Below, in pieces: positions 3,815 to 61,377 of a DNA stretch of 64,000 nucleotides; position 1 is the first letter of the stretch; each line of letters opens with the position of its first letter. The position numbers were made by a program, and so were the translations under genes. Below the pieces are notes generated by a model. It ran no database searches. It was not told the DNA's origin and saw nothing but the letters and a program-made list of their open reading frames with translations. Location: the NCBI GenBank assembly GCA_031265955.1, contig JAISBY010000008.1:1-64000 (forward strand), given 5' to 3'. This DNA comes from Mycoplasmataceae bacterium. Lineage in GTDB: Bacteria; Bacillota_I; Bacilli_A; Mycoplasmatales; Mycoplasmoidaceae.

Positions 3815-5827
3815 ATGAAATTTGTAATCAAACGAGACGGTCGTAAAATTCGCTTTCACGACTCCAAAATAAGTGATGCTTTGAATAAAGCTGCTGAAGG
3901 AACGACTAGTGATATTAAGGCTAGCGATATTAAAATAGTAAAAGACTATGTAATTGAACTTTTAGACCAAATTGATAAAGAGGAATTTGATGTCGAAGAA
4001 ATTCAAGATATTGTTGTTCAAGCACTTAATGAAAAAGGCCATCATAAATTAGCTCGTGATTACAATTTGTATCGTCGTCAACGTACTCATCAAAGAGAAC
4101 GTAAAACAGATTTAATGAAGGTTATTAGCAAGATTGGGGTAGAAACTGATCGTGATAACGCTAATGTTGGCAATAATTTTTCGGCAAAATTATTAAGAAT
4201 TGCCTCCGAAGCAAATAAATGACATGTTTTGTTATCGGTACTGCCAGAACACATGGCCAAAGCTCACGAAATGGGTGATGTTTATATTCATGATTTAGAT
4301 AGTTATAACCTTACATTAAATTGTTTACATATTCCTACTAAAAAGATGCTAACCGAAGGTTTTAATACTGGTTATGGAACAATTAATTCTCCGAAACATA
4401 TCGAAGTAGCGGCGGAATTACTTTGCATCATTTTACAAGCCACTCAAAATGATATGTTTGGTGGCCAATCTCATCCCAACTTTGATAATGATTTAGCTCC
4501 TTTTGTAAGATTATCTAGAATTGAGATCCAAAAGAAATTCAAAGACTTAGGTATACCTAAAAAAGAATTAGAAGCCAAAGTTACGCATGAGTTAATTAAA
4601 AAAGTCAATCAAGCAATGCAAGCTGTAGTGTACAACCTAAACACTATGCATTCTCGCGCTGGTAGCCAAGTACCTTTTTCATCAATTAATATTGGTATCC
4701 CAGATTCTCCTGAAGCCGCAATGATTTGTCAATCTTTTCTAGAACAATACCTAAAAGGTATGGGGCAAGGTGAACAACCAATTTTTCCTAACATTATATT
4801 TAGAGTAAAAAAAGGTGTGAACCGTAATCCTAATGACCCATACAATTATTTATTTAAAATTGCTTGTCATGTAGCGAGCCAAAGAATGAATCCTACTTTC
4901 ATGAACATTGATGCTGATTTTAATAAAGAATATTACGACAAAGGTTATATGCCAGCTACCATGGGTTGTCGTACCTATATCATGAGTAATGTAAATGGCG
5001 AACCAGGTGTGGAAGGTAGAGGTAATAATGCTCCTGCTACTATTAACTTACCAAGAATCGCAGTGTTGGCTGATAAAAAAATTGATAAGTTTTGAGAATT
5101 ATTTGACGAACGGATTGAATGGGCGAGAGATCAATTATTACACCGTCATGAAGTATTAAAACAATTGAAAGTAAAAGATTTACCGTTTGTTGCTGGTCAG
5201 GGTTTAATGAAAGGTTCAGAAAATTTAAAACCAGACGATTCCATTGAGAACATCATGAAGAACGGTTCTTGAGCAATTGGTTTTATTGGTTTGGCTGAAA
5301 CTTTAAAGGCTTTAACTGGTAAACACCATGGCGAATCAGAAGAAGCTCGTGAGTTGGGGTTACAAATCATTACACATTTAAGAGAAAAATGTGATGAGTA
5401 TAAAAATAAATATAAGATGAATTTTAGTTGTTATGCAACACCTGCCGAAGGTTTGTCGGGTAAATTTACACGTCAAGATAAAATTCGTTTTGGTAATGTA
5501 CCCTGGGTTATTTCCAAAGGGTTTTACACCAATAGTTTTCATGTTCCAGTAGATTATCCGATTGCATTTGCTGAAAAATTAGAAATTGAAGCTCCTTATC
5601 ATAAACTATGTAATGGCGGTCACATCTCTTATGTGGAATTTGATTCATACCCAACAGGTGAAATGATTGAAAATGTAGTCCGTTGATCTTACGAAAATAC
5701 TAATATTAACTACATTGGTATGAATTTCCACATTCGTTATTGTCGCGATTGTGCTGCAAGAGCTAATAAAGAACGCTCTTCAGATAATATTAAAAAATCT
5801 GTTGCCACACCGAAGAAGCGCAAATAG
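3815..5827 (+). CDS. nrdD: anaerobic ribonucleoside-triphosphate reductase, catalytic body lacking the glycyl-radical domain
   Basis: Class III ribonucleotide reductase makes deoxyribonucleotides without oxygen, using a glycyl radical installed by NrdG. The 670-residue product has an N-terminal ATP-cone (residues 1 to about 95). It also has the conserved NCLHI cysteine (about residue 170), the GCRTY cysteine expected to carry the thiyl radical (about residue 385), and CYATPAEGLSGKF. It then has YCRDC, normally the first half of a four-cysteine Zn site. It stops 20-odd residues later in a Lys-rich tail. The usual CPxCGS and RVTGYL segment with the radical Gly is absent here and is encoded separately at 6506-6694. 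Together the two are about 732 residues, the normal NrdD length. nrdG follows after 9 nt. No aerobic reductase genes occur in the window. Confidence 0.95.
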
Positions 5828-5836
5828 TTCCTTTTT

Positions 5837-6346
5837 ATGGTTTCTAAAATCAGATTAGCTGGTATTGCACAACAAAGTACTGTAAACGGCCAAGGTTTAC
5901 GTAAAGTTTTCTTTTCTCAAGGGTGTAGTCATCACTGTGATGAATGTTTTAATCCAGAAACTTGACCTTTTACAAATGGGCAAGAATTGGAAATTAGCGA
6001 TTTAGTTAAACAAGTTGTTAAAGAAAAATATTTAACAGGTGTTACTTTCTCTGGTGGCGACCCATTTCAACAAGCAGAGGCATTTGCTGCACTAGCTATT
6101 CAACTGAAACAACACAACATCAATATTTGGTCTTATACTGGGTATACATTTGAAGAATTACTGCAAATGTCAAAAAAAGATAAAAGCATTAAACAAATAT
6201 TATTAAATATAGATGTTCTAATAGATGGTAAATATAAAAAAGAACAAGCTGATGGTCAACTCAAATATCGTGGTTCAGCCAACCAAAGAATCATTGATGT
6301 ACCATCGTATTTTAAGACTCATAAAATAAAAACTTTAACATTTTAG
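5837..6346 (+). CDS. nrdG: anaerobic ribonucleotide reductase activase (radical SAM)
   Basis: NrdG uses a [4Fe-4S] cluster and S-adenosylmethionine to abstract hydrogen from the C-terminal Gly of NrdD. The 169-residue product is normal for the family. The radical-SAM motif CSHHCDEC gives Cys30, Cys34 and Cys37, and the SAM-binding GGDPF motif is visible in VTFSGGDPFQQ. It starts 9 nt after nrdD and is probably on the same transcript. Unusually it sits between the two parts of its own substrate: its target Gly is in the next small gene, not in the nrdD product. Confidence 0.95.
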
Positions 6347-11017: not shown

Positions 11018-11275
11018 ATGCAACTATCTTACCGTTTAAAAGGGGAAGTGGTGAAAGTAACCGATGTTAATTTTAAGGATCAGTATATCTTGCACAAAAT
11101 GAATAACATCGGTATTACTAAAAACACGATTCTGAAAGTACTAGACTATGATAAAAGCAATACATTGCTTCATTTGTTAGTTTATGGCGTGGAATATGTG
11201 TTAAGAGCAGAAGATTGTAGGTACATCAATGTCAGGGAATATCAAGACAATAAACAGTTCCAAAGTAGAAAATAA
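11018..11275 (+). CDS. feoA: ferrous iron transport protein A-like (SH3 fold)
   Basis: 85 residues with a FeoA-type small beta-barrel pattern (LYxxGIT..I..V, then ..VYGVEYVLRAEDCRYINV). FeoA is a cytoplasmic accessory of FeoB. It overlaps the feoB start by 47 nt, which indicates translational coupling and supports the assignment. The start is probably leaderless. The C-terminal 12 residues (QDNKQFQSRK) extend past the fold within the overlap. Confidence 0.8.
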   Translation: MQLSYRLKGEVVKVTDVNFKDQYILHKMNNIGITKNTILKVLDYDKSNTLLHLLVYGVEYVLRAEDCRYINVREYQDNKQFQSRK

Positions 11276-13388
11276 TCAGTTGTTTGATGCTTGGCACAAG
11301 CATCATCATAAAACAGCACATCACCACCATGGTGGTCACTTTAACTTAAAAAATGTTAAAGAAATCTATTTATTATTAGGAACTCCTAATGTAGGTAAGT
11401 CTACGTTCTTTAATAAAATTACAACAGCAACAGCTCAAGTTTCTAATATTGACCGATTAACGGTAGAAGATACTATCGGTAGATATCGCAACAATAAAAG
11501 TATTGCCTTAATGGATTTACCAGGGATTCATAATTTATCACACCCAATTGACGAAGAAAAGGTTGTCGGTCACGAGATATTCAATGAACATTTTAATAAA
11601 ATTATCAACATTATCGGTGCACAATCCATTCAACGAGATTTGATGCTTACATTACAATGCATCGAAACCGGCATGTTGAATACCGTAGTTATCAATATGG
11701 TTGATGAAATCCATAACAAGTCAATTGATTGTAAAAAATTAAGTAAATATTTAAATGGCACCAATATTGTTTTAGCACAATCCAATCGGAATATTGGTAT
11801 TGATAAGGCAAAAGATTCTAGCATCAAAAGTAAATTTGTAGATCCTCACGTCATCACTTATTCTAACCGAGTTGAAACTTATATTCGTAAATTATCAAAT
11901 GTTTTACCAAACCGAAGAGTATCAAATCGGTTTTATGCTTTGATGTTACTGGAAGGTAATCAATATATTGTTGAACAATTACAAAAACATTACCCTGAGT
12001 ACTATAAGAAAGTGAAACAAGTTTTAGGTAATGTTTGTTTGTATGATGAAATTATTAATACTAAAAAAGCATATATTGAAAAAATTATTAATAATTCCAC
12101 AACCATTCCTAAAGACAAATATGTCAAAGTAGCTAAACATAAGCACTATAAAGCAGATCGATTTTTTTTAAATAAATGAATTGGTATTCCTTTATTTATT
12201 TTATTGATAGTTAGTATTTATTTCATTTCTTTTGGGCCGTGAACTGGTGGTGGACTACAAACACTAATCGCTGATGATTTATTTAACAAACTCATTATTA
12301 ATAATATTCATAATTTGTATGCAAACGGTTCGCCTGCAGCGCAATGAGTTAGTGATTTTTTTGTGGATGGTGTATTAAATGGATTTTTTGCAGTGTTATC
12401 ATTCATTCCAGTCATTGTGATTCTATTTATCCTAGTTAATATCATTAATCAAGTAGGCATATTGTCCAGAGTATCAGTTTTGTTGGACCAAATGTTCGAA
12501 AGATTTGGCATTAGTGGTAGAAGCGTGGTGAATCTATTAACTGGATTTGGTTGTAATGTACCAGCTATTATGTTAGCACGTAGCGCTAACTCAACGAAGG
12601 AAAGAATCATTTCCATTTTAATTGCTCCATTTATTGCTTGCAGTGCTAGAGTAATAGTTATTGCTTTTGTATCCAATCTTCTATTCGGGCTTACATGAGG
12701 ATGAACAGCCATGATTTTATTTACTGTTTCTTCAGGATTAGTTGCACTAATTATGGGTTTAATTTTTTCCAAAACAATGTTTCGTAAAACCAAGTCATTC
12801 TTTTTAATAGAAATGGTAGGTTGAAGAAAACCAGATGTGGTAGTCATTGCTAAAAGTGTTTGATTACAGTTAAAAGAGTTTATTAAGAAAGCGGCTGTCA
12901 TGATTGTGTTAGCTAGTTTAATTATTTGGTTACTGCTACATATTTGTCCAGGTAAGCCATTTAGTACTTGATATGATAATAACGACGAAACCATTGGTAG
13001 TTCATTATTAGGTTATGCTTCCAAAGGTTTGCAATATGTTTTTGTACCAATTGGTTTTGGTAATATTGGTAGCGGATCGTTAGGAACTAATGATGGTTGA
13101 AAATTGACAGCATCCTTGTTAAGTGCTTTGCCTGCCAAAGAAATTGCTATTGCAAATATTAGTATGTTGGGGTTAGATAACGCACAATTTTGATCAACTC
13201 ATATTGCTGAAGGATTAAGTTATATGACGATGATCTTATTGATGACACCTTGTGTAGCAACTATGGCGGTGCTTAAAAAAGAAGGTGGCTGAAAAAAATT
13301 AGGCATATCCTTATGATCTTCATTTGCGGTGGCTTATGCAATGTCAGTTTTAATTTATTGAGTAAGTTTCGTAATTACAAGTTTTTAA
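11229..13388 (+). CDS. feoB: ferrous iron transporter FeoB
   Basis: FeoB imports Fe2+ across the membrane and has an N-terminal GTPase. The 719-residue product shows G1 GTPNVGKST (residues 51-59), G3 DLPG and G4 NMVD. About eight to ten membrane segments follow, with the gate motifs GFGCNVPAI and SALPAKEIAI. It begins with an uncommon His-rich tail, HKHHHKTAHHHHGGH (residues 23-37), which may bind metal. The ATG lies inside feoA; an internal start would remove the His-rich part, but none has a better context. Several TGA are Trp. Fe2+ uptake fits the Fe-S dependent anaerobic enzyme NrdG nearby. Confidence 0.95.
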
Positions 13389-16556: not shown

Positions 16557-17068
16557 TTAGTATCCGTTAACATGAGTTGCATCCCATTCGAAAAAATCAT
16601 CAAAACTACTATTTAAATCTTCCAATCAATCATCGTATCATTTACGATCATTGTTATTGAGTGTATAACCATTGCCTGGTTTAATATTTTCATATGTTTT
16701 GAATCAGCCAAACTTTGCATTTTTTTCCAAGCACAAAAACGAAATCACCCATTTCAATCGGTTAAATGGTTATAAGAAACGGCAGGATGACGCATAAAGT
16801 CATAACCATAAGAATATACTTCGACAGTCGAATTAAATCATTCAGTTCCTTCGGCATTATATTTTTGGCTTCAGCCTTCTTTAGCTCAATTTTCATAATA
16901 ACCTGGTTTATCAATAAATGGTTGTCATATAACAGAATCTTTTGGAGTTATATTTCACTCATTGGGAATAGTTGTGGTGTAATCAATGTCTAATAATTTT
17001 TCTCCAGTATGAGCGCCACTATACCTCCTTGATATTTTTGATAAATTATTATCAGAAAAAATAAGCAA
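16557..17068 (-). pseudogene. frameshifted gene for a Trp/Asn-rich protein, remnant or off-switched
   Basis: The - strand is open from TTG 17068 (MLIFSDNN) through WNITPKDSVIWQPF and NHLTDWNGWFRF into a run of seven A (T7 at 16720-16726 on +). It then goes wrong in that frame. The other frame continues sensibly as NAKFGWFKTYENIKPGNGY down to EWDATHVNGY and a stop at 16557. One extra A would join the frames into about 170 codons. There is no signal peptide and the start is poor, so it may be the tail of a decayed surface protein. It is convergent with the nuclease gene. Family unknown. Confidence 0.5.
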
Positions 17069-17075
17069 TTAACAT

Positions 17076-17081
17076 TATAAT
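17076..17081 (+). promoter_or_regulatory. -10 box upstream of the AG repeat
   Basis: TATAAT on the + strand. Transcription would begin about 7 nt later, so the AG repeat at 17095 would be in the 5' leader of the lipoprotein at 17230. Confidence 0.45.
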
Positions 17082-17094
17082 TAAACTTATGTTA

Positions 17095-17116
17095 AGAGAG
17101 AGAGAGAGAGAGAGAG
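17095..17116 (+). repeat. (AG)11 dinucleotide repeat
   Basis: Eleven uninterrupted AG units between a -10 box and a hairpin, upstream of a lipoprotein. It is followed by a five-codon reading frame (ATG CCT ACG GCA TAG). Such tracts change length by slippage. Confidence 0.95.
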
Positions 17117-17155
17117 TAAATATGCCTACGGCATAGTTTTTTCTTCTTTCTCCGA

Positions 17156-17189
17156 ACAAGATATAGTGGTTACTATATCTTGTTTTTTT
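17156..17189. terminator. strong 12-bp hairpin with T7 tail in the lipoprotein leader
   Basis: ACAAGATATAGT/ACTATATCTTGT with loop GGTT, followed by T7. It lies 40 nt before the lipoprotein ATG. It could terminate the leader transcript prematurely, or terminate an RNA unrelated to the next gene. Confidence 0.8.
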
Positions 17190-17229
17190 GTCTATTAACT
17201 TAAATACAAATTAATAAGGAAGATAAAAA

Positions 17230-17718
17230 ATGAAAAAATTGAACAAAATAAAATTGCTAGCACCATTATTGACAGTAGGTGTTTGTGGTGGTGCTGTTGT
17301 TGGTGTGACAAATTGTTCGGGAGACAATTCTTTAAAAATCGACTTTTTGTCAGATGATGAAATTTGAGAACCAGAAAAGGGAATCTGAGATGCAATAGGT
17401 ATTTATGATTTTGATAAAGCTGAATATAAAACTATCGTCACAACTCACATGGGAGGTGCCCCCTCAGGCTCTGCCGAAAGTTCAGGGATGGGTGATGCTT
17501 TTTTCTTTGATATTGGGCAAGATATTAGAATTACAGGAGCTTATTCTTCTAAAATTGGCACATCTATTATGTATCTAATTTCTACAAATTTTCATAAAAA
17601 AGGAGACAAAATAAAAATTCATGCATGGGGTTCAAAACAAACTACAACTGATTTATTTACAGATAATTTGTCTGTATATGAATGAATTAAATTGGATATT
17701 ACCGCATCTTTTAAATAA
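17230..17718 (+). CDS. predicted lipoprotein, intact paralogue
   Basis: 162 residues. The signal peptide MKKLNKIKLLAPLLTVGVCG leads to a lipobox near GVTNC (Cys about residue 29). The mature part contains SLKIDFLSDDE, FDKAEYKTIVTT and a Gly/Ser-rich segment ending SVYEWIKLDITASFK. The next gene is a clear paralogue (NCARDESLKIYL.., YKTIITTEFDD, WNEIKLVVSW). A ribosome-binding site AAGGAAG precedes the ATG. Surface-exposed antigen-like family of unknown function. Expression may depend on the leader repeat and hairpin upstream. Confidence 0.75.
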
Positions 17719-17747
17719 GATTGTAGATTAATTATTATCAGATAATT

Positions 17748-18279
17748 ATGGAAATGATAAAGAAATTAAATTTAATTAAAATTATTGGAGGGGGGGGGAT
17801 TATTAGGTGTTGTTAGTTTTGTCCCGCTTGTCGGTTTGACAAATTGTGCAAGAGATGAGTCTTTAAAAATTTACCTCGGAGATATGTTTTTATATGAATA
17901 TGATGAATACACTTCGGCATTTGCAGTTTCCGCTGGTGCTTATAATTCCATTGAAAACAAATATAAAACCATCATTACAACCGAATTTGATGACAAACCA
18001 GCTGGCGTTAACTCTAACCACGATGAGTATTTTTTTAGTGTTTCTCAACAATTATTTTTTACTGCTGGGACGGTGGGTGACTTTCCAACAAATGTGTGTT
18101 TTCTAGAATTTAGAACCATTCCCAAACCAAATGACCAAAGAACAATTAAGGCCTGAGCAACAGAACAAGTTCTGCCAAATTTGGCTGATGAAAGTATTGA
18201 TTTTTCATCATACAGTTGAAATGAAATTAAATTAGTTGTATCTTGAGCCTCTGTCAAACCCTTGTTAAATAATAATTAA
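17748..18279 (+). pseudogene. phase-off lipoprotein gene, frame broken at a G9 tract
   Basis: The signal peptide MEMIKKLNLIKIIGGGG is encoded in one frame up to G9 at 17790-17798. With nine G the frame then ends at TAG after IIRCC. The rest of the gene lies in another frame: LLGVVSFVPLVGLTNC (lipobox), then ARDESLKIYLG and on to the stop at 18279. Removing one G (G8) joins them into a normal lipoprotein of about 176 residues, paralogous to the gene just upstream. The tract is inside the signal peptide, the classical place for slippage switching. A sequencing error in the tract would look the same. Confidence 0.8.
17790..17798 (+). repeat. G9 homopolymer in a lipoprotein signal peptide
   Basis: Nine G in a stretch of very low GC. 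Length 8 or 11 restores the reading frame; length 9 gives early termination. Confidence 0.9.
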
Positions 18280-18716: not shown

Positions 18717-19118
18717 GGGGATGTCATGGTTTCGACATGAATAATTGACTTTCAAAGGCAGTGGGGTTTGCCCCTTATAGCTATCGAGAACGCTAAATGC
18801 AGACTCAAGAGAAGATAACGTTAATTTAGACGAAGCATTCTTAGTTAACCAATTATCAACACAAAACAACCTTAACTACGCATTTGTAGCCTAGGCCTTT
18901 GTGTCTCCAGGTGTTAGGGTTAGACTACTTACCTTAATACAGTAGAATAAGTAGTTATGTTAAGTTGACGCCTATAGACTTAATGAATTCATAGGCTAAG
19001 TTACTTCAAGGTTGTTCTAATACCGATGGTAGTAATGAAATGCTAAATTAGAACTAAACTGTAGAATTTGTTAGAAGATTATTTGTGGAAATGGGTTCAA
19101 TTCCCATCATCTCCACCA
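18717..19118 (+). ncRNA. ssrA: transfer-messenger RNA (tmRNA)
   Basis: The 5' end GGGGATGTCATGGTTTCGACA and 3' end with T-loop GGGTTCAATTCCC and CCA are diagnostic. The acceptor stem GGGGATG pairs with CATCTCC. tmRNA rescues stalled ribosomes and tags the product for degradation. The tag frame starts at GCA 18799 and ends at TAG 18892: it begins ADSREDNVNLDEAF, ends NNLNYAFVA, and is 31 residues long. That length is large, as in other mycoplasmas, whose tags also end near YAFA. The CCA end is encoded. Confidence 0.97.
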
Positions 19119-38697: not shown

Positions 38698-39531
38698 TTA
38701 TTTACGATTTCTATTTAATCGAAATTGTCGTGTTGCTTTATCTATATAAAAATAAGCAAAATAACAGCCCTCATAAACAATTGTTGTACAAATCAGTAAA
38801 ATGAAATTTGTTAAATACAGTGATTTGCATCAACTATTAATCGATTTAAAAATTCCTGTATCATCTTGATTGTATAAAATTCATTCAGCTCCGCTTATGC
38901 CGGCAGCTTTTAATATTTCTGCGAAAAAGAAGATGTAAATATTGACTCCCAATATTAATAAGAATACAGGTAAATTAATTTTAAGATGTAGTCTTTCAAC
39001 TTGAAAGACGGATAAATATACAAATATCAATACCAATAAAGAGTGCCAAATATAAGAATGAAACGCATAAAATTTAGATTGCTCTGAATCTCAATAATTT
39101 TTATCAAATAAATCCGGAGTATCAAATCCTATGGCAAAACTAACTAAACATATGAAAGCCGTAATAAATAGGAAGTTAAATATTACCTTATGAAATTTAC
39201 TAGTAGATTTGGTAAATATTAAAATTGGTAATAAATACATTGGTAAACTACAAATATGAATTGACAAATATAGTCAGATGCGATGATCGTGTCAAATATA
39301 ACTATATATTATGTATTTGGTAATTTCTAATATTAATAATAAAATTCAAATACTAAATAGAATGATTTGGTGAATTTTTAAATTAACAAGTTTATTAACT
39401 ATTAATTTATTGGGGGGGGGATTAGACGTTAATTTCTTTTGAAAAAAATTATGTCTAATAATAAACTTACTAGATATTACTAATAAAAAAATAAAAATAA
39501 CAATTCCTAAGCACGTTAATATGTGAAACAC
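38698..39531 (-). CDS. multi-pass membrane protein, YwaF/TIGR02206-like (second copy)
   Basis: 277 residues from a GTG start. The only upstream in-frame codons lead to a stop 7 codons earlier. About seven membrane segments, similar in size and layout to the protein at 1104-1982. Shared features include a Pro-Pro-Pro motif near the N-terminus (residues about 38-40) encoded by a nine-base C run. Many TGA are Trp. It follows atpC by 18 nt on the same strand but has its own TATAAT about 13 nt before the start. Function unknown. Confidence 0.65.
39412..39420 (-). repeat. C9 homopolymer (G9 on +) in the second YwaF-like gene
   Basis: Encodes Pro-Pro-Pro about 38 codons into the gene and is currently in frame. 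A one-base change would abolish the protein. Confidence 0.9.
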
Positions 39532-51682: not shown

Positions 51683-53935
51683 ATGCCAGGTAATGTTGCT
51701 CAGGAAGAATTCAAAGATAAAAAAACTTCCATCAAAGATTGATTTACTAAAAAATTCATTCCCAAAGTTGCTAAGATCGGCAATCAAAGACACATAGCAG
51801 CAATTAGAGATTCGTTTGGGACAATGATCCCTATCATTATTGCTGGCAGTATTGGTATTTTAATTGGTACCATCGGTTTCGGCGGCTGAGGTAGTGGTTA
51901 TGTTTCTATTTTAGGTTTATTATGTAAAGCTAGCAATTCTCACACTGCATGAAGTGACATTTCTACAATGTTAGCAAGTACTAATAACAATTGAGGAAAA
52001 ATATCCACTATTTTTTCATCCATCTTTAATGTGATGAATACCGCAACAATTGGAATGATGTCGATTTATTTTATTTTTTTATTTGGTTATTATTTGGCAT
52101 TAGGCAAAAAAAATAAACAACCGATTATTGGTGGTTTTGTTGCACTAGCTTCATTTGTGATTGCCTGTATGGGGCAAATTACTTTTTTTATGGGAGCACA
52201 AGGATTAATTGCGGCAATTGTATTTGGCATTATCTCAAGTGAATTGTACGTTAGGTTTTGTAATGTTGAAAAATTTAATTTGAAACTTCCTGATTCTGTT
52301 CCGCCAGCTGTCGGAAAGTCTTTTCAAGTTTTCCTACCAGCTTTTTTCGCTTTAGCCTGCGTTGCTGTTTTAAATTTAGTGGTGCTAATGCCAGCTATTC
52401 TTATTCCGTCATCTCATCTATATGTTACTGGGATGTCATATGATACAGTTAGCAATGGTTTATTGTTTGATCAAACAATGTGAGATAAAGCTTTCCCAGA
52501 CGGAAATTTATGAAGCCAACAAAATGCAAATTTGCTAAATGAATTATTTACTAGATTTAGTGATACTGCATCTTACACAGACGGCCATAGTTTTAAAGAA
52601 TGATTGGATACACTAAGTCCTTCACAAAATGCTTTTGTTGCTACAGCACTTGCCAACTATGATGGTAAAATTGATCTTAGTACTTTAACGTCAATTTTAG
52701 ATCACGCTAAAATTAATGCCGTTTGAAATAGTAGTCTTAACAACTGAATATTATCAATTAATTGAAACGATATTAAAATTGGTAGCACATCCTTTGGTTT
52801 AGGGGAAGCAATTTATCAATTTTTCACAATGTGATTTATTAGTTTTGCGACTAGTAACGGGGGTTTGGCGCTAGCTGTATTATTTGCATTCTTTGTATCG
52901 TTTTTCTGATTCTTCGGTATTCACGGTTCCAACATTATGGGTGGAATCTTTGAGCCTATTTGGACCATGATCGTGGTTTTGAATTCCACTCTAGTTACAA
53001 GTATGGGCAGTTATGATGCAGCCGTTGCGACTGGTAGCATGGGTGTGTTTGGCAAACCTTTCTTTGATTCATTTATGTATGTTGGTGGTAGCGGCGCTAC
53101 TTTAGGACTTTTAATTGCTACTTTCATATTTTCAAAGCGAAGAGATTTAAAGGAAATAGCAAAATATGCTACCCCCCCCGGAATATTTCAAATCAACGAA
53201 CCAACAATATTCGGTTATCCAATTATTTTAAATCCAGTTTATTTTGCACCATTTATATTAGCACCAATCGCCAATTTAATGACTGCTTACATTTTTTCAC
53301 CAGCCGTATTAAATTGAATGCATTATCCTTACATTATTATTCCATGAACGACGCCTTGGTTTTTAGGCGGTATTTTGTCTACTCTAAGCCCCGGTGCATT
53401 GATACCCACGATTTTGGTTATTTTTATAGACATTTTCATATATCTACCTTTTGTATTAATTGACAACAGGAAGTTTTTCAAGCGAATTAAAAATGAAAAC
53501 GTGGAAATGTATCATGAAGAACTTAAGTATTCGTTTAATAAATATTACCATTTTGTTGCTAATACTAAGAAGAAATACCAAGCTAAATTAAATGCAGCAG
53601 ATCACGCTGTTACTGTCGCCGAAAATCGTAATGACTTCATCAAATCATTAACATTCAAAGAAGCAAGAAAAACTCGGATGATTAACAAGAATTTAACTAA
53701 GGCTAATGAAAGAAAAACCCAATTGATTAAGAAGGCAGAAGAGTTTAAAAGTAAACGCGATAAAACGGAAATGAATTTGAAAAATAAATTATTAAAAGCA
53801 AATTTACAATTATCGGAAAAATTGAAAAAACAAAATACTAAGATCCAAACAAGAATCAACCAAAAGCCAAGTTATATGAAGAAGGGCGAATTGAAATTGC
53901 AGTTTAATAACGACATTATCGCAAGTCTAGCATAA
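51683..53935 (+). CDS. PTS lactose/cellobiose-type EIIC with C-terminal coiled-coil extension
   Basis: 750 residues. The membrane domain has the family motifs GIHGSNI, GGSGATLGL and INEPTIFGYPIILNP. A 120-residue soluble insert replaces a loop after helix 5. After residue 590 comes about 150 residues of highly charged helix (KKKYQAKLNAADHAV.., KANERKTQLIKKAEEF), unusual for IIC. A C8 run at 53172-53179 encodes Thr-Pro-Pro just before the NEP motif and is in frame now. A one-base slip would remove the sugar site. More than ten TGA are Trp. Confidence 0.9.
53172..53179 (+). repeat. C8 homopolymer inside a PTS permease gene
   Basis: Eight C in codons for Thr-Pro-Pro in ATPPGIFQINEP. Currently in frame. 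Confidence 0.9.
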
Positions 53936-58065: not shown

Positions 58066-61000
58066 TTAATTGAAATATGAATATCCGTATCCGTTAACAG
58101 GAAATCAATAATCTAAAACGTCTATTGTGTCTGCGTATTGAGGTGGTCCATATCAAGGCGCATTCTGTCAGTAGGTTAAGTTTTGCGAACCATAGACATT
58201 TATTTGTTGACTAACAACACAATTATGAAAAGCGGTTGCATCAATGCCGTTTCCCACATTGTAATTTGGATTTGGGGTGTCGCTTGAACCATTGGCTTGG
58301 GTGTATGAGGTAAGATCAGTGATAAATAATGTTTCCAAACTTGTCAAAACAGCAAAAGCAAATAGACCAGCACCTGCAACTCAATGAACATTTACATCGC
58401 TAGAACTTACTGCAGTGAAATCGGTATAACTTATATTTAGTCTTTTTAGATTTGTTCATATTGAATCTCCAAAAGTGTTATAAGCTGTATCAATTTCACA
58501 CGATGTAGGGTTGGTAGTACAAGGGTGCAAGGCACCGAAAACCGCTCCAGCAGTACTAAATGTTTCAACGTTACTAAAATCAGCTGCAAAAAAAGAATTA
58601 CTAGCTGTTACAATCCTTGTTTGCGAATTATCACCAATAATCATGCCAGTAACCGCAAATATCGTTTGTCCCAGACTGAAAAAACGGATGTTTGAAAAAT
58701 TACTATGTGTGAAAGTGCTCTCAGCAGTTTTGACATTACCTCTGCTCATTCCGCTAGAAGCAAATGAAACACCAGATAAATTTAATTCTTCAAGACTAGA
58801 AAAATCGCAGGCATAAAATGTTAAAGTAGCTGTGGATACAAGAATATTGCCCATCGCTGGACTGTTTTCGGCAAAATGACCAGCAAATGAAGCATGTTTG
58901 AAATCCAGATCTTTCAATTGAGAAAAATTTACACCTACAAAAGAAAGCGGTGATGTTGCTACAGAAGCAACTTGACCGCTAAACAAACTATCGGGAATTT
59001 CATCCTCTCCGAAATTAACGTTAGTCCAATCTATAGAAGTTACATTATTAAAATTAGCAGCATTAGTTATTGATTCATCAGGATTAAGTAAGCCACCAAA
59101 AGCAGTTGTTGCGGTAGCGATACATGGACCCGGGGAATTGATTAAACTCAATATTCATTGATCGGTAATTAATGCTCATTTTCAAGTTGTATTATGAAAA
59201 CTTAATTTTCCAATCTTTTTATAAAATGTATTTAAGTTAGTATATTTGGGATTTTCCGGACTAAACGCATATACTTCGCTGGATAAAAATTTATTTGCAA
59301 AAGAAAGCATGTTAACTTCAGATACATTAAATTTTGCCAAATATGCATTTAAAGTTTCATCATTAATTCAACTAGCCACGAAGGCATCAGCATAGCCAGT
59401 GATTGTATCATTTGTTGTAGTTGTGGTATCAAAAGTAAAGAAATCAGCGGTTTGTGGAAGCGCTAAATTGTAATCAGTTACTACATCAATATTCTGCACA
59501 TCAGTGGTAATGTCATATGCTGGTATGCCTATCTGTATTGGATATGATCCAGGCTGTGTGTCATTTTTTAAAGAAAATTCAAACTTAGTTGAAGCGTTAC
59601 TTGCTCAAGTTTCATTTCATGCAATATCAAAATTTGATGCCTTATCACCAAAAGCAAAAGCAGAGAAATTGGTTGGTAACTCGTCTGTTGTAAAACCTTC
59701 GGTAGTTAAGGTGGCGGTAACGGGAATGGTTTTAGTTTCAATATTTAAGGTGTTAAAATCTAAATTGAATTGAATTTTCTTTTCAACATCTTTATGTACT
59801 GGTAAAGCAACAACAACATAGTGATTTTCATCCAACACAATTTTAACATCGTGGCTACCAACAGTAGCTGTGCCTGGTTTGAATGTAAAAGTAGCTACTG
59901 CTTGATTTTCTTGTTTCTCAGATGTTAATCCAGAATCTAATAGGTCGCATGTTAATGCTCGTAGATCCTCAGTCCTAGTATAACTATCGATCATACGTAT
60001 TCGAACTTCGGCGGTAGTATCTGGTTTGCCGTATGTCATTTCATTACTATAAATCTCTACTGAAATTTGCTTGGTGTCTCTTACTCAAATATTCACATCA
60101 GTTGTTACTGGTGTTCCTAAAGCATCAATAGCAGATACAGTATAAACATGATCGCCGGCATTTGCTCCATCTCACTGAATGGTATTAGTTGCTATATCGC
60201 CGACTTGGCTTCATTCGCCTTCTATAAGACCTGAGAGGTCATTGAGCTGTAAATTACTTCATGTAGTTATGTTGAATTTAGTAACTTTTATTGTTGCTGT
60301 AGAGGAAGATTCACCTCGTTGTAAATTATTATCAATAACTATCGCCGAAATAGCTTCTTGGGTTTGAGTAAAAACATCCAAGCTTATGGTAATTTCTTCT
60401 CATTGTGCTTCTTCGGAGGGAGTGATTTTAATAGTATGTACACCAGATGCTAAAGTTGAATCATTTTCAGGTGTGGCAGTGATAATGTTTGTTGTATCAT
60501 TTCAACTTAAAGACAATTTTTGATTTTCATTAAGATCCGCCGTGGTATCTTCATAAACGATATTTGTTAAATCGGCATCATTTTCAGCATCTAATTCGAT
60601 TGTAGCATAAGAGTTAGCATTACCTTGTTGCAAATCATTATGAGTTACTGATGCTATTACTTTTTGTCAACTATCAATATGAATGGATAGCTCTACAGAA
60701 TCACTATCAATGCCATTAAGATAAATTGTTTTAGAACCAGAGGTTGTATCCCCCCCCAGTGTAATAATTCATTCATTGGAAATTGGAGACCTTGCCCATA
60801 CCAAACCAGTATCTTTGGTATCAATTGTTAATAGTTCTCAAGCAAATCCTTTAGTATTGGCAGCAATAATAGCCTGTGAACTAGCAACTCCGACTTGCAA
60901 ATTGTTGCTTACAACCTTAACGTTAGTAATGGAGTTTTGTGACTTAATATTAAAGTCAACTAACTTACTCTTGCCCTTCGTAATGACTTCAATTTGATAA

Positions 61001-61377
61001 TCTAATGAAGAAGATAAATCTTGCTGTCTTCAATAAGGATCAGTAGCATCGGTTAACTTAACAGTTCTTTTAGCTTTTAAATTACTAGTACTTCAGTCAT
61101 TGACTCAAGTAAATAAATTATCAACGTTTTGACCATCCTTTAAAAAATGTGTTTCTGGTATAACGAATGATTCTGTAAATGTTTCTGCAACGGTAACGTC
61201 CATTGTGCCAGTTGAATCATTTACTTTTAAAGCCTCGTTTAAAGTATGTGGTTCAAATTGAATTGGTGAATCTGCTGAATTAGTAGCAAGAGTACTAATA
61301 CCGACAACCGCTCCAGTAGCCGCTCCTGTTGTCGCTACAGTAGCTGATGCGATAATTAATTTTGCTTTTAGAGCCAT
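58066..61377 (-). CDS. large BspA-like surface protein
   Basis: 1,103 residues, one frame with many TGA-Trp. An N-terminal hydrophobic segment (LIIASATVATTGAATGAVVGI) acts as signal or anchor. Residues about 50-650 form repeated Ig/cadherin-like domains with the sequence (V/I)xxNNLQxGxAxSxAxI recurring every 90 residues or so. The last 370 residues hold irregular leucine-rich units (FSSLEELNLSGVSF, FSQLKDLDFKHASF, FSNIRFFSLGQTIF) as in BspA-type adhesins. It probably faces the host and binds cells or matrix. A run of eight G (C8 on +, 60750-60757) encodes LGGD and is in frame. Confidence 0.85.
60750..60757 (-). repeat. G8 homopolymer (C8 on +) in the surface-protein gene
   Basis: Located about 210 codons into the gene, between two Ig-like domains. 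At length 8 the frame is open; length 7 or 9 would truncate the protein. Confidence 0.9.

Follow-up and report, generated by a model that had tools for sequence, protein, structure and literature searches.

A putative phase-variable lipoprotein gene interrupted at a G9 tract, next to a candidate leader-peptide repeat attenuator, in a Mycoplasmataceae genome

In the homopolymer contingency genes of Neisseria, Campylobacter and mycoplasma surface proteins, a mononucleotide tract near the 5′ end of the gene toggles its reading frame; the usual tract in mycoplasma surface genes is poly-A. Control of transcription through a leader reading frame is known from Escherichia coli pyrBI, where attenuation responds to UTP and a ribosome that trails the polymerase closely keeps the terminator from forming. 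In our literature search, one paper alone (PMC3894217) joined leader peptide, terminator and phase variation by repeats: in the Streptococcus gallolyticus pilus operons pil1 and pil3, GCAGA repeats lie in a leader led by its own Shine-Dalgarno (SD) site, as proved with mutants and flow cytometry (Danne et al., 2014). In pil1 the repeat number sets the length of the leader, termination is averted when a ribosome stands at or within the hairpin, and leaders that end at least 28 nt before the terminator give a mostly low pattern. In a mollicute, Mycoplasma gallisepticum, repeat number controls transcription of the large vlhA lipoprotein family; these are reported as GAA repeats in the promoter region (PMC6258824). 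M. gallisepticum is also known to have intrinsic termination, and leaderless transcripts whose proteins have been detected.

We analysed a stretch of 64,000 nt (the window; G000:C5:1-64000) of the source genome G000, an 11-contig draft of 980,658 bases from an uncultured mollicute that reads TGA as Trp. The ATP synthase beta subunit of this genome is 89% identical to that of Mycoplasmataceae bacterium isolate Pcl387_bin181. One congener, G013, is the Pcl387_bin181 genome, since it contains a 3,392-base stretch identical to contig JAITJR010000083.1 of that isolate; from the naming of the isolate, G013 appears to come from a termite gut. The window also holds NrdD/NrdG-like (3815-6346) and FeoB-like (11229-13388) genes, recognized by eye, which fit an anaerobic gut mycoplasma.

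Two lipoprotein genes lie side by side in the window (Table 1), and the second, starting at ATG 17754, carries nine G inside its signal peptide. A preliminary description had placed the start and the lipobox of this gene in different frames, with the break exactly at the nine G, and our translations of both frames agree: the start leads into a short dead end, and the lipobox (LTNC) and ectodomain are out of frame with it. Shortening the tract by one G does join the start to the LLGVVSFVPLVGLTNC and ectodomain frame, as had been proposed for eight G. The suggested paralogy with the gene at 17230 also stands (30% identity, E 1.8e-12). That neighbour had been called intact, which is right for its ORF; it is not simply intact, since it sits behind a repeat-containing leader with a terminator. 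A 26-nt direct repeat (85%) at 17034-17059 and 17720-17745 precedes both lipoprotein genes, possibly the trace of a tandem duplication; the copy belonging to the G9 gene is followed by neither leader nor terminator. A tmRNA gene (18717-19118; ARAGORN and Rfam) lies downstream of the G9 gene.

Table 1. Features of the two adjoining lipoprotein genes (window coordinates)
Feature	Position	Strand	Evidence or remark
TATAAT, putative −10 box of the neighbour's leader	17076..17081	+	sequence
Predicted leader-peptide ORF in its current frame, similar to MLREREREREVNMPTA plus stop	17089..17136	+	stop 17134-17136, 18 nt before terminator stem
(AG)11 repeat within the leader ORF	17095..17116	+	
Small hairpin, TATGCC-TAC-GGCATA	17121..17135	+	
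Predicted intrinsic terminator between leader and lipoprotein gene	17154..17189	+	14-bp stem, 4-nt loop (17154-17185), T run
AAGGAAG, SD-like site of the lipoprotein gene	17216..17222	+	
Intact paralogous lipoprotein gene	17230..17718	+	162 aa, lipobox VTNC
GATAAT, putative −10 box of the G9 gene	17741..17746	+	7 nt before ATG 17754, near-leaderless; spacing as in the leader family; putative function
Start of the G9 gene in its current frame, broken signal peptide	17754..17816	+	translation with code 4 (TGA = Trp): MIKKLNLIKIIGGGGIIRCC plus stop, 20 aa
G9 tract in the signal peptide, proposed switch	17790..17798	+	sequence, run statistics
Remaining signal peptide (LLGVVSFVPLVGLTNC, lipobox) and ectodomain in the other frame	17799..18279	+	open for 159 codons beyond the tract, stop at 18279

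The neighbour's leader resembles pil1 in having a non-triplet repeat within a short leader ORF downstream of a promoter (TATAAT, 7 nt, ATG 17089, (AG)11), so that the repeat number sets the end of the leader. After a small hairpin comes a predicted intrinsic terminator, which stands, as in pil1 and pil3, between the leader and the surface-protein gene with its SD site; in those operons the leaders that reach the terminator form the ON class. Here the frame that passes the terminator ends at 17196-17198, beyond it. The distance from the current stop to the stem falls between those that were clearly ON and clearly OFF in pil1. We predict that the leader at (AG)11 is OFF or low, and we are less sure of this than for leaders ending immediately behind the repeat.

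The same arrangement recurs in the genus. Leaders were gathered by pattern search and from fetched stretches in the source genome and its congeners G006, G013 and G021, and those with a clear terminator from G000, G006 and G013 (four weaker candidates, L014, L218, L221 and L229, were excluded by hand) make a set of 57 with G, AG or CA repeats; related CA leaders occur in a fourth genome, G021. Their anatomy, conservation and frames can be read off directly. In the G-type block, TATAAT stands 5-7 nt before an ATG, from which a short stretch without stops leads into G7-G10; next come a small hairpin and a pyrimidine stretch, then an intrinsic terminator, and finally an SD site with its lipoprotein or surface-protein gene; the leader at 17230 keeps this order with (AG)11 replacing G, and further copies have (CA)n. 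Strong terminators follow 58 of 72 repeats that have the TATAAT-ATG element, against 12 of 85 repeats that do not, and the stems show compensatory changes in 12 of 16 consensus pairs. The ORFs downstream are mostly preceded by an SD site, and many encode a lipobox. As terminator and SD-led ORF come after the block, we rejected the idea that the G-tract block is a transposon end. The tmRNA gene was the sole Rfam match in the window, which means that the leader belongs to no known RNA family. When 320 genomes of the order were searched for G-type leaders, these were frequent only in G000, G006 and G013, and outside the genus only single sporadic matches appeared, as in the control.

Across the family the leader ATG lies 5-12 nt after the −10 box, which leaves little or no room for an SD site, and the leaders have no ribosome-binding site of their own. 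They differ from pil1 and pil3 in this near-leaderless start, in their G, AG or CA repeats, in an often present extra hairpin and an occasional second repeat in the promoter, and in serving dozens of lipoprotein and surface genes over three or four genomes, where they are known from sequence alone. We therefore regard the leader system as a variant of the pil1 kind and not the same system, as it lacks the leader's own ribosome-binding site, a feature that the mechanism does not require. The wider system appears to match a pil1-type switch, seemingly a rarer sort than the tract in the G9 gene; what would be new is that it is multigenic, apparently leaderless and built on other repeats.

Several counts concern the reading frames of the leaders. 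The ATG frame is open as far as the repeat in all 57 leaders; among 37 distinct pre-repeat sequences it contains stops in none, and the other two frames do in 17 and 18. Of the three frames beyond the repeat, a single one extends to the terminator stem in 46/57 leaders and two extend that far in 11/57 (for several CA leaders two frames reach the stem base). A frame is open to the terminator loop in 54/57 leaders, against 43.7 ± 2.9 when the spacer is shuffled (0 of 300 shuffles reach 54), and exactly one frame is open to the loop in 50 leaders, against 29.8 expected. The leaders are largely homologous copies, and keeping one leader per 80%-identity cluster leaves a smaller excess of open frames (24/26 vs 20.3; 73 of 2000 shuffles reach 24); for the dinucleotide leaders alone, clustered, the excess is absent and not significant (8/10 vs 9.0). 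As in pil1, the leader stops far short of the terminator at certain repeat numbers and at or past it with others, a pattern seen in the family and less strongly after clustering; in the current assemblies 16 of the 57 leaders are in the frame that reaches the stem. The CA leaders of G021 were obtained after the hypothesis had been formed and serve as a separate held-out set (n = 7): in 7/7 the ATG frame alone is open, the other two being closed, and in 5/7 exactly one frame passes the terminator, the remaining two being a leader with a weak stem and no passing frame and a leader with two passing frames.

On this basis the neighbour would be controlled one step earlier than the G9 gene, through a near-leaderless leader peptide containing (AG)11. 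The repeat number would decide how far the leader ORF extends: it would stop directly behind the repeat or at the small hairpin, or continue across the terminator. A ribosome reaching the terminator should block its folding, so that the lipoprotein gene is transcribed; with no ribosome there, transcription should stop ahead of the gene. Leader translation, termination and antitermination would thus act together much as in pyrBI, where the leader ORF also spans the attenuator, with the difference that the input here would be a heritable repeat length. The likeness to vlhA is that of a large mollicute lipoprotein family with repeat-controlled transcription; the vlhA repeats are reported in the promoter region (PMC6258824), whereas ours lie in a leader ORF followed by a terminator.

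The leader repeats might instead act by RNA pairing with the pyrimidine stretch, or by effects on the promoter or on initiation, with no part for leader translation. The G repeats are predicted to pair with the spacer with a mean probability of 0.91 (0.65 with shuffled spacer), and a C or G tract of at least 7 lies 4-20 nt upstream of the −10 box in 13/57 leaders. We nevertheless think this account unlikely: pairing nearly vanishes in the CA leaders (0.14), whose remaining anatomy is the same, the paired repeat and spacer do not overlap the terminator, and it would stay unexplained why the ATG frame alone is free of stops before the repeat. As CA repeats do not fold onto the pyrimidine stretch, we regard the pairing in G-type leaders as accessory, although it might act without translation. 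The C/G tracts 4-20 nt upstream of the −10 box, second repeats in these leaders, occur for example in L012, L032, L042, L053, L055 and several G006 leaders; a change in their length could alter promoter strength, in series with the leader switch. Returning to control by leader translation, we hold with moderate confidence that a genus-wide multigene element, made of a near-leaderless G, AG or CA leader and a terminator, stands at tens of surface-protein genes, each switched transcriptionally, and that those with a repeat upstream of the −10 box carry two independent heritable switches in series.

For the G9 gene, the tract itself is the proposed switch, and such tracts are far from random. The window contains 5 G/C runs of at least 8, against 0.05 expected from dinucleotide shuffles, and is depleted of A/T runs of at least 9 (1 vs ~13.7 expected). 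Genome-wide, G000 has 79 tracts of G7 or longer, ranging from G7 to G10, and their lengths (12 of 7, 35 of 8, 27 of 9 and 5 of 10) peak at 8-9, unlike the steep decay expected by chance; among 36 congeners the number of tracts spreads widely, from 0 to 80. We inspected about 3 kb around each G000 tract. Thirteen tracts lie in N-terminal or signal-peptide regions, 11 of them ahead of a lipobox cysteine (lipoproteins), and these genes are 8 in frame and 5 out of frame (the G9 gene, L003, L015, L019 and L043), all with 143-498 open codons downstream. Of the other tracts, about 10 belong to the recurring noncoding block read above as the G-type leader, several to promoters, and the remainder to ORFs, mostly in frame.

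Some individual tracts deserve mention. Further G/C tracts of 7-9 in the window (39412-39420, 53172-53179, 1299-1306, 1923-1929 and 60750-60757) lie within ORFs, mostly in frame; ORFs with such tracts include a membrane protein (38698-39531), a 750-aa PTS-like protein (51683-53935) and a large surface protein (58066-61377). In L039 and L040 (G000:C3:453476-461431), adjoining paralogues of ~350-500 aa each carry a C8-C10 tract close to the N terminus; one of them is in frame and three are out of frame. A G8 tract occupies the promoter spacer of a gene named flavodoxin-like by eye (L007, ~1490-1520; TTGACA-AAAC-G8-ATA-TATAAT). In L239 (G018:C47), (CA)n lies near the start of an ORF, currently in frame, whose N terminus resembles type I restriction-modification HsdM by eye. 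Two tracts (G7/G8; L001 and L059) are in frame within conserved motifs of ROK-kinase-like and FtsH-like genes.

Since the tracts are not a product of chance, and since the N-terminal ones occur in both frame states with a long run of open codons behind every one of them, phase variation is the best reading of the G9 gene, which is supported as a phase-variable lipoprotein gene in the OFF state in this assembly, in agreement with what had been proposed. As in an SSR contingency lipoprotein, a frame-toggling repeat sits in an otherwise intact gene, with 159 open codons behind it, and the tract type is over-represented. Slippage at the G tract would alter its length; of every three length classes one would join the start to the lipobox and ectodomain (ON), and the remaining two would give a short dead-end peptide (OFF), the assembly holding an OFF length. 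Presumably the tract changes length within the population, and surface variation would be its purpose.

A homopolymer error in sequencing or assembly, with the true tract in frame and the gene simply on, is improbable in our view. Errors are common at homopolymers, and the assembly is an 11-contig draft, but the tracts in housekeeping-like ORFs (FtsH-like, ROK-kinase-like) are in frame, the conserved genes of the window show no general pattern of frameshifts, and the family of tracts would stand even were the G9 wrong at 17790. Slightly less probable again is a recent pseudogene, its tract frozen out of frame and its sequence decaying. The gene is indeed out of frame in the sole genome that carries it, with no orthologue among the 35 congeners and none beyond the four copies in its own genome. 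Decay should, however, leave stop codons downstream of the tract; we looked for them in the assembly, and the 159 codons contain none, the 478 nt 3′ of the tract forming one open frame where only 10 of 2000 shuffles have any open frame. Four more genes with N-terminal tracts share the out-of-frame state and keep their downstream frames open, and eight are in frame; the long open frames in all 13 mean that the OFF genes show no decay. That the gene is expressed despite the G9 is very improbable. Polymerase or ribosome might slip, as can happen on long runs of G, or translation might begin at an internal TTG (17785), the start of a 164-aa frame that includes a hydrophobic stretch and a lipobox. 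This TTG, however, has neither an SD-like site nor a basic n-region ahead of the hydrophobic stretch, and the in-frame sister genes have an upstream ATG giving a normal signal peptide.

The G9 gene is thus best read as a switchable gene, and its relatives carry repeats as well. Its paralogues are at G000:C3:239475-239858, C3:337690-338064 and 17296-17673 of the window, giving a family of four in G000, each with a repeat: the G9 in the signal peptide, the AG leader of the neighbour, a G7 leader ahead of C3:239475 (L026), and a G9 leader with an upstream C8 ahead of C3:337690 (L032). Pfam assigned no family to either lipoprotein of the window, and a search of a general collection of genome contigs (genome_contigs) returned no homologues of the neighbour lipoprotein. 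The feature at the G9 gene is real and of an already known kind, that of the homopolymer contingency genes; it differs from usual mycoplasma surface genes in using poly-G, in a genome poor in long A/T runs. Taking both genes together, we consider it quite probable that the G9 gene is a G-tract contingency lipoprotein and its neighbour at 17230 a leader-peptide repeat attenuator.

Attenuation through repeat-set leader length has so far been described, in the literature we searched, in one streptococcal group and two operons. If true, its use by one lineage at tens of genes, drawing on three types of repeat and dispensing with ribosome-binding sites, would make it a general solution and not an oddity, and the leaders would form a natural set of near-replicates for studying how ribosomes hold terminators open. 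It would also suggest that a group of gut mycoplasmas, with at least one member apparently from a termite, puts much into varying its surface with no vertebrate adaptive immune system to face.
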